In this document: positions 2,915 through 8,735 of the stretch, piece after piece
Position numbering within the stretch: position 1 is the first letter of the stretch
Layout: each line of letters starts with the position of its first letter
From: Halobacteriovorax sp. JY17
GTDB lineage: Bacteria > Bdellovibrionota > Bacteriovoracia > Bacteriovoracales > Bacteriovoracaceae
DNA length: 64,000 bases
Assembly (NCBI RefSeq): GCF_002753895.1
Contig: NZ_NJER01000001.1
Location: 1,488,910-1,552,909 of the forward strand
Reading direction: 5' to 3'
Position numbers and translations under genes: made by a program
Notes under the pieces: generated by a model
Database searches by the model: none
What the model saw: the letters and a program-made list of their open reading frames with translations, nothing else
What the model was told of the DNA's origin: nothing

Positions 2915-3715
2915 ATGACTCTAGTAACAACACAATTCAAAAAAATTGTAGAAATGATTGGTCAGGCTACAATCGAGAACATTCAAGGTCTCGGTAATAT
3001 ATGTCGCTTCATTTCTAAATTCTTCTACTGGATTTTAAAACCTCCTTTTAGATTTAAACTCTTTGCTGAGCAGTTCTACTTTATTGGGAATAAATCCCTT
3101 TTTATTATCACTTTGGCCGGAAGCTTTACTGGAATGGTAATGGCCTACCAGACTTACTTTGGTTTTAAATTAATAAATGTAGATTCACTTGTTGGTTCGG
3201 TGGTCGCGATCTCCCTCGCAAAAGAGCTTGCTCCAGTTTTAAGTGGACTCATTGTTGCTGGAAGAGCTGGAGCTGCAATGGCCGCTCAAATTGGAACAAT
3301 GAAAGTGACAGAACAAGTGGATGCTTTAGAAGTAATGGGAATTGACAGCTATCAATATCTAGCAGTTCCGAGAATCCTTGCCGCAACTTTTGCTCTTCCA
3401 ATGTTAAGTATAGCATTTCTCTTTGTTGGAAATGTTGGATCATATATTGTTGGAACAGTGGCCCTGATGATTGACGAAACTATGTATTTGTCAAAACTCG
3501 GTGAATTTATGTTCGTTGGTGACATTATTCAAGGAATAATCAAGGCGACAGTTTTTGGTTTTATTATTGCCGTTATAGGAACTTACTTCGGATTTAATGT
3601 AACAAAGGGTGCTGAAGGAGTGGGGAAGGGAACAAATCTTGCTGTTGTTTGGGGAATGATTTCTGTTCTCGTTTTAGACTACTTCTTAACCAGTTTTCTA
3701 ATTCAGGTACTTTGA
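2915..3715 (+). CDS. mlaE: MlaE-type ABC transporter permease
   Basis: Inner-membrane permease of the Mla (MCE) phospholipid transport system, which moves glycerophospholipids between inner and outer membranes. It has 266 residues with about five hydrophobic segments. The MlaE landmarks LAKELAPVLSGLIVAGRAGA and GTMKVTEQVDALEVMGIDS are clear. It is the first gene of mlaE-mlaF-mlaD, with the ATPase start only 3 bases after its stop. The ATG has a weak Shine-Dalgarno (AGG), and no better start is visible. The symbol follows the family; auxiliary Mla genes (mlaB, mlaC, mlaA) are not in this window. Confidence 0.93.
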   Translation: MTLVTTQFKKIVEMIGQATIENIQGLGNICRFISKFFYWILKPPFRFKLFAEQFYFIGNKSLFIITLAGSFTGMVMAYQTYFGFKLINVDSLVGSVVAISLAKELAPVLSGLIVAGRAGAAMAAQIGTMKVTEQVDALEVMGIDSYQYLAVPRILAATFALPMLSIAFLFVGNVGSYIVGTVALMIDETMYLSKLGEFMFVGDIIQGIIKATVFGFIIAVIGTYFGFNVTKGAEGVGKGTNLAVVWGMISVLVLDYFLTSFLIQVL

Positions 3716-3717
3716 TC

Positions 3718-4467
3718 ATGAAGTTTGAAAATCCTGCCATTAGCATTTCTAATTTAACAAAGATATTTGGAAAACATACAGTTTTAAATAATTTAAACTT
3801 TGATATTCCAAGAAATAAAATTACCACGATTTTAGGTTTCTCAGGTGCAGGAAAGTCTACGCTTTTAAAACATATGCTTGGTCTGCACCAGCCCACTAGC
3901 GGAAAAGTTTCGGTTCTTGGGAGTGATCTTTCAACCCTTGATCCAATGAAGCTTAGAGAATTTAGACAAAACTTTGGAATGCTATTTCAATATGCGGCCC
4001 TCTTTGATTCTAAGAGTGCTGTGGAAAATGTTGCTTTTCCAATGAGAGAGTTCACAAAGCTTTCAGAAGAAGAAATTCTTGAAAAGTCTAAAGATCTTTT
4101 ACAATCAGTAGGTATTAAAGAAGTTTCCTATGGAGGCTTACCATCTGAATTGTCTGGTGGAATGAGAAAGAGAGTGGGACTCGCTAGAGGACTTGCTCTT
4201 AATCCACATATTATGCTTTATGATGAACCTACAACAGGACTTGATCCAATTACGACAAAAATGGTCAACGATTTAATTGTAGATACAGCAGAGAGAAATA
4301 GTGACCGAGGAATGACGTCAATTATCATTTCACATGACGTAAAAGCTACCCTTAGGATTTCTGACTTTGTAGCCTTCTTAGACCGTGGTAGTATTGTTGA
4401 GTACTTACCTGTGGAAGAATTTAAAAAATCAACAAACCCTCTTGTGCAGGAATTTATTAATTTATGA
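3718..4467 (+). CDS. mlaF: MlaF-type ABC transporter ATPase
   Basis: ATP-binding subunit that energises the MlaE permease at the cytoplasmic face. It has a Walker A (GFSGAGKST), a signature (LSGGMRKRVGLARGLA), a Walker B (IMLYDEPTTGLDP) and a switch histidine (IISHD). I chose the ATG at 3718 because it follows the mlaE stop directly and gives the normal 249 residues; an upstream in-frame start would lie inside mlaE. The gap to mlaD is 12 bases, which supports one operon. Confidence 0.95.
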   Translation: MKFENPAISISNLTKIFGKHTVLNNLNFDIPRNKITTILGFSGAGKSTLLKHMLGLHQPTSGKVSVLGSDLSTLDPMKLREFRQNFGMLFQYAALFDSKSAVENVAFPMREFTKLSEEEILEKSKDLLQSVGIKEVSYGGLPSELSGGMRKRVGLARGLALNPHIMLYDEPTTGLDPITTKMVNDLIVDTAERNSDRGMTSIIISHDVKATLRISDFVAFLDRGSIVEYLPVEEFKKSTNPLVQEFINL

Positions 4468-4479
4468 GAAGTATAAGCT

Positions 4480-5850
4480 ATGAACGAATTTAAAATTGGA
4501 TTAATGGCCATTGCAACTATGGCGATGGTTGCTTATATGTCTTTAAAGATCACTTCTAACCAATCTGGCTTTGGAGAATATGTAACATACAGAACTATTG
4601 TTACTGATGCTTCGGGGATTTTTCCAAAGACTCCAATTAAAGTTGCGGGTATTAATGCCGGTAGAATTAAGAAAATTGAGCTACAGGGAAATCAAGCCTT
4701 AATTACTTTCGAGGTTCTTGATGAAGTTGTGATAGTGAAAGATTCAAAACTTCAGGTTAAGACTGTTGGTTTTCTAGGTGATAAGTATATTCAAATTCAC
4801 ATGGGTGACTCTCAAGAGCGATTAACTGAAAATGCTTTCATTGTTTCTGATGAAGGAGCAGGTGTTGAGAAACTTGTAAAAGATGCAAGTGACGTTCTTA
4901 AAGATGTAAAAGTTATGATGAAAACTTTAAGAGAGTCAATTGCTCCGGAGGGAGAGGTTTCTCCTGTGAAAAAGATTCTTAATGACTTTACTCAAGTTGC
5001 TGCAAATGCTCGAATTGCTACAGAGTCTCTGAAGAACGTTATTCAAGGCAATGAAGAAAGAATGAATAACTTAATTGCGAACCTTGAAAGATTCACTGAA
5101 CAAATCGCTTTTCAAACTGATGATCAAGAGCAAGATAGTGCTATGAAGGATCTTAGAAAAATTCTTGCTAATGCAGATGCAATGACTGCGGATATGAAGC
5201 AGCTTGTAGCAGACATTAAAGTTGGTAAAGGAACTCTTGGGAAAATTCTTGTTGAAGAAGAAATTGCGGATGAAGTTAAGCAAACACTTTCTAGTGTGAA
5301 TAAAATTGTTGGAAGAGTAAGTGATATTAGAACTGAACTTTCTGGGTTCATGGGAGCTGGAACCGAAGAAGGTAGTACAACAAGTGGAGCCCTTAGAATT
5401 TTTCCTTCGCCGGAGAGGTTTTATATTTTAGGTTTGAGTTCGTCTAATTATGGGCCTGAGTCTGAAAAACAAACAACTAGAATAGTAGGTGGCGTAACAA
5501 CGATTGAAACAGAGAAAGTTAAGAAGAAGGATGTCTTTCGCTTTGATGTTCAAATCGGTAGAAAACTTCATGACTTATATGTAAGAGGTGGAATTATAGA
5601 GTCTACTGGTGGTGCAGGGATAGACTATGATCTCTTTAATGGAGCGACTAGGCTCTCTTTCGATGTCTTTGATTATAGAGATCATGTTGGTCCAAATCTA
5701 AGGCTTTCAACTGAAGTTCAATTATGGAATGTATTTTACGGTAAAGTATCAGGTGTAGATTTAGCAACTAAAGATAGGTCAGCTCTCTTTAGTCTTGGTC
5801 TTCGATTTAATGATGAAGATATTAAAGGTTTACTTGGTTTTTTCTTATAG
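4480..5850 (+). CDS. mlaD: MlaD-family MCE protein with C-terminal extension
   Basis: Substrate-binding MCE protein of the Mla system, anchored in the inner membrane by one N-terminal helix (residues 4-22). The MCE domain runs from about residue 35 to 115, with ASGIFPKTPIKVAGINAGRI and VKTVGFLGDKYIQIHMG. Residues 135-300 look largely helical. The last 140 or so residues are rich in alternating polar and hydrophobic strands (IGRKLHDLYVRGGIIESTG, LFNGATRLSFDVFDYRD) and resemble an outer-membrane barrel or beta sandwich. At 456 residues it is far longer than E. coli MlaD (about 180). It may therefore cross the periplasm by itself; that is inference. Confidence 0.88.
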   Translation: MNEFKIGLMAIATMAMVAYMSLKITSNQSGFGEYVTYRTIVTDASGIFPKTPIKVAGINAGRIKKIELQGNQALITFEVLDEVVIVKDSKLQVKTVGFLGDKYIQIHMGDSQERLTENAFIVSDEGAGVEKLVKDASDVLKDVKVMMKTLRESIAPEGEVSPVKKILNDFTQVAANARIATESLKNVIQGNEERMNNLIANLERFTEQIAFQTDDQEQDSAMKDLRKILANADAMTADMKQLVADIKVGKGTLGKILVEEEIADEVKQTLSSVNKIVGRVSDIRTELSGFMGAGTEEGSTTSGALRIFPSPERFYILGLSSSNYGPESEKQTTRIVGGVTTIETEKVKKKDVFRFDVQIGRKLHDLYVRGGIIESTGGAGIDYDLFNGATRLSFDVFDYRDHVGPNLRLSTEVQLWNVFYGKVSGVDLATKDRSALFSLGLRFNDEDIKGLLGFFL

Positions 5851-5857
5851 GTAAGAA

Positions 5858-6907
5858 ATGGAAAAGTGTTGGTTAATAAGAACTAAAAATAAGCAAATTT
5901 TAGGTCCAGTTACAAAACAAAAGATTATTGAATTTGTTAACAAAGGCTCATTAGCTCCTGACGATGAAGTTACGAGTGGAAATGGATACTGGATTTCTAT
6001 TAAAGAAGAGAATCTTGTTGAAAAGTATATTCATGGAGATATACCACAAGGGTTTAATCCTATTTCAGAAGCTCCAAACGTTCTAACTGCAAATACCCAT
6101 CAGCCAACAGAAAATACGGGTTCTCTTAATCCAAGCACAATGCCTAGCCCGAGTCATGAATTAGACTCTCTCGAAATAGAAGATCGTAGTGACCCTGTCG
6201 TTCCTGTTGAAGATGATCTTGATTACCCTGATATGGGGTCTCCTTCAGAGGAAGTGATAACTCCAAGTAATGAAGATTTAGAATATCCAGATATGGGAAT
6301 TGTTGAAGTTAACCCTGTCGCTGTTTCTAAGCCTGTGGTGGAGCCATCGACAGCTCCGAAGTCAGCTCCTGTTCAGATGAATGCTCATGTGGAAAATCAA
6401 GAGCCAGGTCATGATGAAGAGGGAAAGCTCCCTGATGGTGATGATTTGGAGTATCCAGATATGGGGGATGTGTCAGCCCCTGCGGCAGAGAGTTTTGATC
6501 CTGATGCTACTGACCCTAATTTTGATTTAAGTTCTGCAGATATTACACAAGACGACATCGTATTTTCAGAGCCTCCACAAGTAATGGAAGATGTTACTCC
6601 AGATATTCCTCCTGCAGCAAAAGAAGTATCTACAAAAAAAAAAGCTAAATCATCAGTAAGTAAGAAAAAGACTTCTAAAAAATCTTCTTCTTCAAGCAAG
6701 AAAAAGGTCTCCAAGCCGCAGAGAAATGATCGGTACCTTTTCTATGTCCTCGTTTTTCTTATTCTTGTAATTGCTTCTGGAGCTTATTACTACTTTACTA
6801 ACATCATTAATAGCGAAGTTGTTAGATTTTCAAATCCTTTGATACAAAATGTTCAAGCTCAGTCACTCTATAATGGAGAAGTAAAAAAAAAAACTTTTTT
6901 GAATTAA
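5858..6907 (+). CDS. GYF-domain membrane protein, upstream part of a split frame
   Basis: The N-terminal 55 residues match the GYF_2 type: WLIRTKNKQILGPVTKQKI then a second aromatic cluster (GNGYWISI). A long acidic, proline-rich region follows, holding three copies of [DE]DL[DE]YPDMG at residues 119-127, 139-147 and 195-203. A Lys/Ser-rich stretch (about 260-290) leads into one membrane helix at about 293-313, so the N-terminus should be cytoplasmic. The frame ends 35 residues after the helix, just past an 11-A run, while another frame continues open for 417 codons. I infer that the two parts make one protein of about 761 residues. It lies 7 bases after mlaD, so it belongs to that operon. 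Confidence 0.8.
   Translation: MEKCWLIRTKNKQILGPVTKQKIIEFVNKGSLAPDDEVTSGNGYWISIKEENLVEKYIHGDIPQGFNPISEAPNVLTANTHQPTENTGSLNPSTMPSPSHELDSLEIEDRSDPVVPVEDDLDYPDMGSPSEEVITPSNEDLEYPDMGIVEVNPVAVSKPVVEPSTAPKSAPVQMNAHVENQEPGHDEEGKLPDGDDLEYPDMGDVSAPAAESFDPDATDPNFDLSSADITQDDIVFSEPPQVMEDVTPDIPPAAKEVSTKKKAKSSVSKKKTSKKSSSSSKKKVSKPQRNDRYLFYVLVFLILVIASGAYYYFTNIINSEVVRFSNPLIQNVQAQSLYNGEVKKKTFLN
6875..6905 (+). promoter_or_regulatory. Candidate transcriptional-slippage or -1 frameshift site (A11)
   Basis: Eleven A residues (6883-6893) are followed by C and six T. In the GYF frame this reads gta aaa aaa aaa act ... taa (stop at 6905). Adding one A to the transcript, or a -1 ribosomal slip on the AAA AAA codons, joins the frame to the open frame that runs to 8142. 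GGAG at 6875-6878 sits a few bases upstream, where Shine-Dalgarno-like stimulators of bacterial frameshifting lie. A weak stem can be drawn between 6908-6914 and 6949-6955. A sequencing error or a real mutation would look the same. Confidence 0.55.
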
Positions 6908-8142
6908 CTCCTCTGGTAAGAAACCTCTACAATATTGCATTTCGAATAGGGGGAGATGGCCTAAAAGTTCTTGTTTCAAGTATTCCAGATATTGAAGAAT
7001 GTAATTATAAGAGTGAGTTTGACTTACAGCTCGCGATAGCTTTATCTAAAACGGACTTTCTTCTAAATGAGCAATTTAAAAGTTTTTTTAAGAAATGTAA
7101 CCCGAAGTTCTCTGAAAGAACTCTCGATATTTTGCACTATCCTTATAAAAAGGGAAATAATCTAAAAGAGATTTTAAGCTTTTTACATTCTCGAGGTTTT
7201 TCAAAGAAAGAGCTGGAGAATATTGAAAGTATTTGGAAAGCTAAGTACCCAGGTAAAAATGAATTAGATGAAATATCCTCTATCATGTCCTTGATCAAAA
7301 ATAACAAATCAAAGCTAAATAGATTTAATCTCTATAATAAATTAATCGAAAAGGCCGAGAGCTCGAAGTCTTCCTTTATAAGCAGCCTTCTCTTTAGTGT
7401 TGGTTACGGACAAATAGGAAATAAAGGACTTCTAGCTGAACACTTCAAGAAATTAATATCTATAAATGAAGTAGTGTATATAAATGATCTTTCTCAAGAG
7501 TTTATTTCTGAGAGTAATAAAGAAAAATATTTTAAATTAATTAATGATCTTTTTTCGAATCTAAGAGAATCCTTAGAAGATGAGAAATTAATAAGAATAT
7601 TAGATTCAAATTTTCATTTCTTAGATTTAGAAGGGAAAATTATTAAGTTTGAATCAAATTCATTTGATTGGTCACTGAATGAAATTAGAGAAAATATGCG
7701 TACAACTCTTTACGGTACGTCATTTCCTTCTTTTTGGATGAAGGCTGTTATCAATCGAATATCAAATAAAGATAAAGAGAAGTTTATATCTAAAATAGAA
7801 AAATCTCGAATATTGAAGAGACTTAATATTTTAGATTATTGGATATTTAAAGACAATCTCTCTCCAGATGATAAGACACGTACTCAAATTGTCGACTCTT
7901 TGAGTACGGCCTATGGGAAGAGCTTAACGAGTGATTATGTAATTTTAGACTTATTAGAAGATTCAATCGTTAAAAAAAATCTAAGTTTGAAAGATAGTGA
8001 GTTTAAGAAGCCAATTTTTACTTTAAAAAGAAATTACTTTCATAGAGCTCTTCTTGATGGACGAGAGACATCTTTTCCTATAATGAAGTTGATAGAAATG
8101 GGTGAGGAAAGAGAAGACTTTGTCTGGTGGTTAATACTATGA
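6892..8142 (+). CDS. Downstream part of the split GYF-membrane protein
   Basis: This frame is open from the A11 run to the TGA at 8140-8142. The first usable start I can see is a TTG at 7132, without a Shine-Dalgarno, while coding-like sequence begins right after the run (ELTPLVRNLYNIAFRIGGDG). Independent initiation therefore seems unlikely, and I treat it as the C-terminal 416 residues of the GYF protein. If the helix in the upstream part is used, this part lies in the periplasm. It is Lys/Leu/Ile-rich and looks mainly helical; I recognise no domain. Its stop overlaps the next start (ATGA). Confidence 0.65.
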   Translation, partial: NFFELTPLVRNLYNIAFRIGGDGLKVLVSSIPDIEECNYKSEFDLQLAIALSKTDFLLNEQFKSFFKKCNPKFSERTLDILHYPYKKGNNLKEILSFLHSRGFSKKELENIESIWKAKYPGKNELDEISSIMSLIKNNKSKLNRFNLYNKLIEKAESSKSSFISSLLFSVGYGQIGNKGLLAEHFKKLISINEVVYINDLSQEFISESNKEKYFKLINDLFSNLRESLEDEKLIRILDSNFHFLDLEGKIIKFESNSFDWSLNEIRENMRTTLYGTSFPSFWMKAVINRISNKDKEKFISKIEKSRILKRLNILDYWIFKDNLSPDDKTRTQIVDSLSTAYGKSLTSDYVILDLLEDSIVKKNLSLKDSEFKKPIFTLKRNYFHRALLDGRETSFPIMKLIEMGEEREDFVWWLIL

Positions 8143-8735
8143 AAAAAAAATTATTTGTTTATCCTACAGATACAGTTTGGGGCATTGGCGGAAGTATATT
8201 CTCTAAAGAATGTTATGATAAAATAGCCCTTATAAAAGGTCATGCGAATAAGAAACCTCTCAGTATCGTTTTTCAAAGTTTTGAAATGATTAATGAATAT
8301 ATTAATCTTCCGAAAGAGTTTTCGAGAGAGTGGTTGAATAAATTCTTTGAATTTGAGTCAACAATCGGCGTTCCTAAGCAATGGGCGAAAGTAGATCTTC
8401 CCGTGTGGATTTGCCAAGATAGTGACTATTTAACAATTCGTTGTATGGACACAGATGAGCTTCGACCGATATTTCGGGAAGTTGGAGGGCCAATAACCTC
8501 CACAAGCCTTAATCTTACAAAGCGACCTCCTATTATATCTCTAAGCGATGCAGATGATTTCTTTCATAAATTTATGAGTAATGAATACTTTAGCGGGCAG
8601 ACTGAGACAAAATGCTCTGGGCGATCATCCACTATAGTTCTCTACAGCAATAGTGGTGTTCAAATAGTTCGAGAGGGAAAGTATATTGAAGAAATTAGAG
8701 AACATTTTAAATTACTCTCAACCACATTTTTATAA
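8139..8735 (+). CDS. Sua5/YciO/YrdC-family protein
   Basis: Member of the threonylcarbamoyl-AMP synthase fold, whose best-known members (TsaC/Sua5) make the precursor of the t6A base at position 37 of ANN-decoding tRNAs. It shows YPTDTVWGIGG near the N-terminus, KGHANKKPLSIVF for nucleotide binding, TIRCMD, and GGPITSTSLNLTKRPP. At 198 residues it has the length of TsaC rather than of two-domain Sua5. It could instead be a YciO-type paralogue, so I give no symbol. The ATG at 8139 overlaps the previous stop as ATGA, and nine A follow the start codon. Confidence 0.85.
   Translation: MKKKLFVYPTDTVWGIGGSIFSKECYDKIALIKGHANKKPLSIVFQSFEMINEYINLPKEFSREWLNKFFEFESTIGVPKQWAKVDLPVWICQDSDYLTIRCMDTDELRPIFREVGGPITSTSLNLTKRPPIISLSDADDFFHKFMSNEYFSGQTETKCSGRSSTIVLYSNSGVQIVREGKYIEEIREHFKLLSTTFL

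Follow-up and report, generated by a model that had tools for sequence, protein, structure and literature searches.

A conserved adenine run that breaks a GYF-like gene beside mlaD is a likely programmed slippage site in a family of predatory bacteria

The window analysed here is a stretch of 64,000 nucleotides from the genome of Halobacteriovorax sp. JY17, in which a cluster of mla genes is followed by a gene for a GYF-like protein that is broken at a run of eleven A residues (Table 1). In most of the family mlaD adjoins the GYF gene, and an MlaD-like match lies on the same strand at 114 of 127 family loci. The GYF frame, an ORF read from the window, ends 12 bases past the A11 run, in the context GTA AAA AAA AAA ACT TTT TTG AAT TAA. 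The -1 frame is open from 6874 to a stop codon at 8140-8142, giving a 415-residue continuation; its first ATG, GTG or TTG after the run is a TTG at 7132, with no usable start before it. Addition of one A joins the two frames into a 761-residue protein with the junction KKKNFFELTPL. The frame break, the lone late TTG and the joining of the frames by one A had all been reported in an earlier note made from the sequence alone, and all three hold. A GGAG motif that it placed just upstream of the run is present (6876-6879), but is incidental and not conserved. To these we add a second conserved run in the same gene, an in-frame A10 upstream of the membrane helix on which the note was silent, and the observation that the long form is the unslipped one in some species.

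Table 1. Positions of the GYF-like gene, its parts and its neighbours, counted from the first letter of the window
Feature	Position	Strand	Remarks
mlaE permease gene	2915-3715	+	Pfam MlaE, E=1.6e-72; upstream in gene cluster
ABC ATPase gene (mlaF position)	3718-4467	+	Pfam ABC_tran, E=2.9e-32
mlaD gene	4480-5850	+	Pfam MlaD, E=7.5e-15; directly upstream of the GYF gene
N frame, 349 aa short form	5858-6907	+	GYF_2-like domain, acidic/Lys-rich linker, membrane helix, short tail; N-terminus conserved family-wide
Run 1, A10 in frame	6634-6643	+	Some 30 residues ahead of the membrane helix; every slip would give a protein of 263-267 aa
Membrane helix, residues ~293-313	6734-6796	+	Sequence; hydropathy scans of homologues
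VQAQ, conserved [VA]xAQ signal-peptidase-I-like site	6851-6862	+	Cut expected after the A at 6859
Run 2, A11, putative slippage site breaking the frame	6883-6893	+	Sequence; family comparison
TAA ending the unslipped short form	6905-6907	+	Sequence
C domain, -1 frame, 415 residues, helical, two invariant Cys	6892-8142	+	Would be reached by +1 A
Sua5/YwlC-like gene	8139-8735	+	Pfam Sua5_yciO_yrdC, E=7.6e-26; overlaps the end of the C frame

The N-terminal domain matches Pfam GYF_2 (PF14237) with E=6e-4 and 19.9 bits, under the gathering cut-off of 25.8; GYF_2 membership is not met and we describe the domain as GYF-like only. The best PDB sequence match to the N-domain profile is the GYF-type domain of the myxobacterial adventurous gliding motility protein X (PDB 7z3c), which at E=0.23 is not significant and is a lead rather than a result. 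Neither the C domain nor its DNA had a credible match in Pfam, Rfam or PDB, and no PDB match to the domain falls below E=0.09. An AF2 model of the C domain (pLDDT 94.7) shows a hairpin followed by a helical array. Residues C36 and C68 are invariant in 81 of 81 sequences in the C-domain alignment, and such a pair would suit an oxidising periplasm.

Long A runs are scarce in this genome. Just 11 distinct runs of A≥10 are present on the two strands of its 3.47 Mb, and two of these are in this one gene; of the other nine, two fall inside long ORFs and are in frame there. Genome-wide, about 30-280 overlapping matches are expected from simple Markov models of the window, as against 13 observed, and such runs are therefore avoided in the genome. 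Avoidance of A/T runs beginning at length nine has been described for many bacterial genomes by Baranov and colleagues (PMC1088944). With 11 distinct A≥10 runs genome-wide, the presence of an A11 and an A10 in a single gene is very unlikely to be due to chance.

Two further genes with long runs in the window's genome are worth noting. A prolyl-oligopeptidase-like gene has an in-frame A10 at codon 259 (G000:C2:480128-480137), which lies mid-domain and shows no sign of function. In a gene for pyruvate kinase that carries a ferredoxin-like 4Fe-4S tail at its C-terminus, an A10 lies between the two parts (G000:C1 1765988-1765997), where slips in all frames would end the protein in 1-5 codons. Runs of A9-A11 are found between these parts in five of about 27 family genomes; the run is A9-A10 and kept in frame in relatives G001, G010 and G015, and in G017 an A11 places the tail in the -1 frame. 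This is a possible second slippage gene, although a sporadic one, and most other genera have no run there.

A sample of 129 genomes of the family (the Halobacteriovorax/Bacteriovorax group) was compared, 121 of which have a GYF-like N-terminus. The loci, 127 in all, were oriented and searched with a C-domain profile, and the C domain was found in 90. Neither the C frame alone, which gave no match as a query in a close-homologue scan of genome contigs, nor a profile of all C domains is suited to such a scan, the former because the domain diverges too fast and the latter because it is too divergent. All four congeners share the split (A10, A10, A11 and A11), with 37-65% protein identity in the C part. 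Across the family, 65 of the 90 loci, from 25 genera, place the C domain in the -1 frame, and the run at their junction is A9-A14 and never shorter: A9 at 10 loci, A10 at 46, A11 at five, A12 at three and A14 at one. The remaining loci comprise 15 with one intact frame, three with breaks at both runs that cancel, two with a +1 offset and an A10 or A11, and five with a separate C gene. The long form would need slippage at 70 of the 90 loci. The species are not independent, and genus g24 contributes many loci.

The place of the run is largely constant: at most of the 65 loci it lies 3-9 codons after a [VA]xAQ motif, which itself follows the membrane helix. Breaks out of place are seen in the linker before the helix in four genomes (G012, G036, G110 and G129) and within the C domain in one (G105). 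This persistence of the run and its position across the family is shown directly by the comparison. The reading frame on either side is more labile. Thirteen of the 15 intact-frame genomes still contain runs of A9-A12, and in ten of these genomes an A9-A10 lies right after the VxAQ-like site, where a slip would end the protein in 1-12 codons; in G096 an A9 occupies a place similar to the VxAQ-adjacent runs. In such species the unslipped form is the long form. The resting frame has changed at least 19 times on a C-domain tree (a quick tree with some long branches); of the two, the run is therefore the more stable. Two intact-frame genomes, both of genus g17, have no run of A≥9 near the junction, so slippage is not indispensable everywhere. 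We note separately that the three genomes with breaks at both A runs would need two slips for a full protein, or that the gene is decaying or misassembled there.

Both the run and the frames that it separates bear the marks of selection. Lys codons inside the run are AAA at all 65 loci, as compared with 64% AAA and 36% AAG elsewhere in these genes (log10 P of about -38 for all loci, and -13.6 with one locus per genus). Between congener pairs the second codon positions change least and the third most, in the N and C parts alike, with synonymous change near or at saturation in most pairs. Purifying selection thus acts on both reading frames, including that of the C domain, and the arrangement of run and frame is very probably maintained by selection in the 25 genera. 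One rival is that the break arose as an error of sequencing or assembly, or that it is a recent mutation and the gene is decaying. In its favour, homopolymers are prone to error and a single added A makes the frame whole again. Against it, the same break in the same direction is seen in 65 assemblies of 25 genera, both frames are under purifying selection, and the C domain has two invariant Cys and a confidently predicted fold; this rival is all but excluded. The conservation rules out error, except in the exact count of A in any single assembly. The earlier note had left error or recent mutation open and proposed that relatives be compared for a run staying at 10-12 A and a persisting break; the four congeners and 65 of the 90 family loci (A9-A14) pass this comparison, and error is not upheld.

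A second rival is that a start within the -1 frame makes the C domain a gene of its own. Five lineages (G014, G030, G075, G108 and G109) do encode it separately. In these the GYF protein is a short soluble ORF, directly followed by the C domain, which starts at an ATG of its own and has a signal peptide that ends in SQ or AQ; the [VA]xAQ-like motif also ends these separate signal peptides, and no long A run is left at the junction. In the lineages that would slip, by contrast, the first start codon has no conserved position and is found 7-325 nt beyond the run, and in the window the TTG at 7132 falls past both invariant Cys (36 and 68) and the N-terminal hairpin, with no signal peptide there. 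Internal initiation is all but excluded for these lineages. No genome of genus g14 yielded a C domain; there the gene stops shortly after the helix, with the Sua5-like gene next, and it encodes only the short form. The fission lineages and g14 thus establish that a C domain can be exported as a unit and that the short form can exist without the long one, and lineages of fission and loss have reached the same products. The VxAQ site, the invariant Cys and the signal peptides of the fission lineages support the earlier proposal that the short form is a cytoplasmic GYF protein whose anchor is bare and that the long form adds a periplasmic part, but the proposal remains an inference without protein data.

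The run upstream of the membrane helix (run 1) shows a related pattern. An in-frame A9-A12 precedes the helix at 39 loci of 12 genera, nearly half of the loci, at a median of 22 residues before it. In the slipped frames a stop follows after a median of one codon (+1 A) or three codons (-1 A), as against five and nine in the background (p of about 2e-8 and 5e-9), and no such near stops are seen in the slipped frames of A5-A7 runs in the same linkers. In the window all slipped frames of run 1 stop within about five codons, giving a protein of 263-267 aa. Taken as genus means, which include frame-broken runs, the stop distances are not significant. We count the near stops of run 1 as good evidence, but secondary because the loci are not phylogenetically independent. 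After run 2, third-frame stops are not significantly nearer than background (p=0.07).

The reading that we think likely is that run 2 is a programmed slippage site kept by selection; slippage itself is inferred, in the absence of RNA or protein data. Transcriptional slippage is favoured by the floor of nine A with a mode of ten, the free codon phase, the lack of a Shine-Dalgarno (SD) element or stem-loop, the cases that need an opposite slip, and the near stops in both slipped frames, although this level too is an inference. The earlier note had also offered a -1 ribosomal slip as the joining mechanism, which is less likely. In this alternative, ribosomes frameshift or slide on AAA AAA AAA to make the long form from an unaltered mRNA; every run contains A_AAA_AAA, the resting offset of -1 at 65 loci is the direction that ribosomes favour, and sliding of ribosomes on AAA runs has been described (PMC4363877), so that the level of the event here is not proven. 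Several observations speak against it and make it unlikely. A heptamer of 7 bases would suffice, yet no junction run is shorter than nine. All three codon phases of the run occur among the 65 loci (34/9/22) and only four of the 65 runs end in AAG, so there is no conserved in-phase heptamer such as the A_AAA_AAG of the Escherichia coli dnaX type. No stimulators are apparent: SD-like words lie upstream of just 5 of 65 homologous runs as against a 12% background, on which ground the GGAG of the window is rejected as a stimulator, and no downstream structure is enriched after the run (mean fold z of -0.3). Two loci (G120 and G148) need the opposite slip, and run 1 has near stops in both slipped frames, as two-way polymerase slippage predicts.

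It could also be supposed that the gene is a phase-variable contingency locus, in which changes of run length in the DNA switch the C domain on and off between cells. The repeated changes of resting frame on the tree fit this, as do the sister genomes G120 (A11) and G121 (A10), which differ in both run length and frame. Between species the offsets are strongly biased, however (65 at -1, 15 intact and two at +1 with a run), where near-equal thirds would be expected from free wandering, and run length is narrow, with 46 of 65 at A10. The -1 state is stable in whole genera (5/5 in g1, 7/7 in g58, 5/5 in g4 and 3/3 in g7), in g1 despite near-saturated synonymous sites, and phase variation does not predict the stops after run 1. 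We regard it as very unlikely.

A plausible scenario under transcriptional slippage is that RNA polymerase would slip on the A11 to give mRNAs with differing counts of A. An unslipped mRNA, or one slipped into the third frame, would end 2-4 codons past the run and give a helix-anchored GYF protein of 347-349 aa, whereas one with an extra A, or two fewer, would be read into the C domain to give 761 aa. The C domain would then cross the inner membrane, and signal peptidase would probably release it by cutting at VQA|Q, a cleavage that is inferred. A slip at the A10 of run 1 would yield a soluble, unanchored GYF form of 263-267 aa. The proportions of the forms are likewise inferred, and would be set by the run length and resting frame of each genome. 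A bolder reading, which on balance we are slightly inclined to doubt, is that two slippery A runs bracket the anchor to give three products (one soluble in the cytoplasm, one anchored in the membrane, and one with a periplasmic domain that is either anchored or cleaved), with the runs and near stops selected while the resting frame drifts. If true, the ratio between compartments would evolve by single-base indels.

The arrangement resembles that of tssM1 in Citrobacter rodentium (PMC4256274), where an A11 is followed soon after by the end of the short form, and one added A extends the inner-membrane protein to a long form by a further C-terminal domain; slippage there is 20-25% and both forms are needed (PMC4256274). 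In the pair formed by tssM1 and Yersinia pseudotuberculosis tssM3 one species slips to the long form and the other to the short, which is similar to the mixed resting frames seen here. The proteins are unrelated, though, and runs in tssM are uncommon (PMC4256274), whereas the site described here is found in 25 genera, is often doubled and lies just after a signal-peptidase-like site. Thermus thermophilus dnaX (PMC1088944) also has a run of the A9 type, with stops close by in the other frames, and makes two functional products from one gene; it differs in gene and in compartment logic, and its unslipped product is the long form, as is true here only of intact-frame species. Corrective slippage in Buchnera and Blochmannia (PMC5009743) similarly involves long A runs at which a broken frame is restored, but as a rescue in reduced, AT-rich genomes, whereas the present genome has few runs of A≥10 and this one is conserved at one place.

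As to function, our best guess, possible but resting only on the position beside mlaEFD and the predicted topology, is that the protein is a bridge or adaptor of envelope lipid-transport machinery, its GYF end binding a partner in the cytoplasm and its C domain another in the periplasm. A role beside the Mla-type transporter is inferred only; within it, slippage would set how many copies carry the periplasmic part.

We found no description of this gene in the open-access literature on slippage or frameshifts in Bdellovibrio and Bacteriovorax, and across most of the family it is probably misread by automatic annotation. Transcriptional slippage is known from few bacterial chromosomal genes, and this one would span a whole family of predatory bacteria. 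It comes with built-in comparisons: the resting frame differs between species, some have divided the gene in two, and one genus lacks the long form. These make it testable why a cell would fix a product ratio by polymerase stutter.
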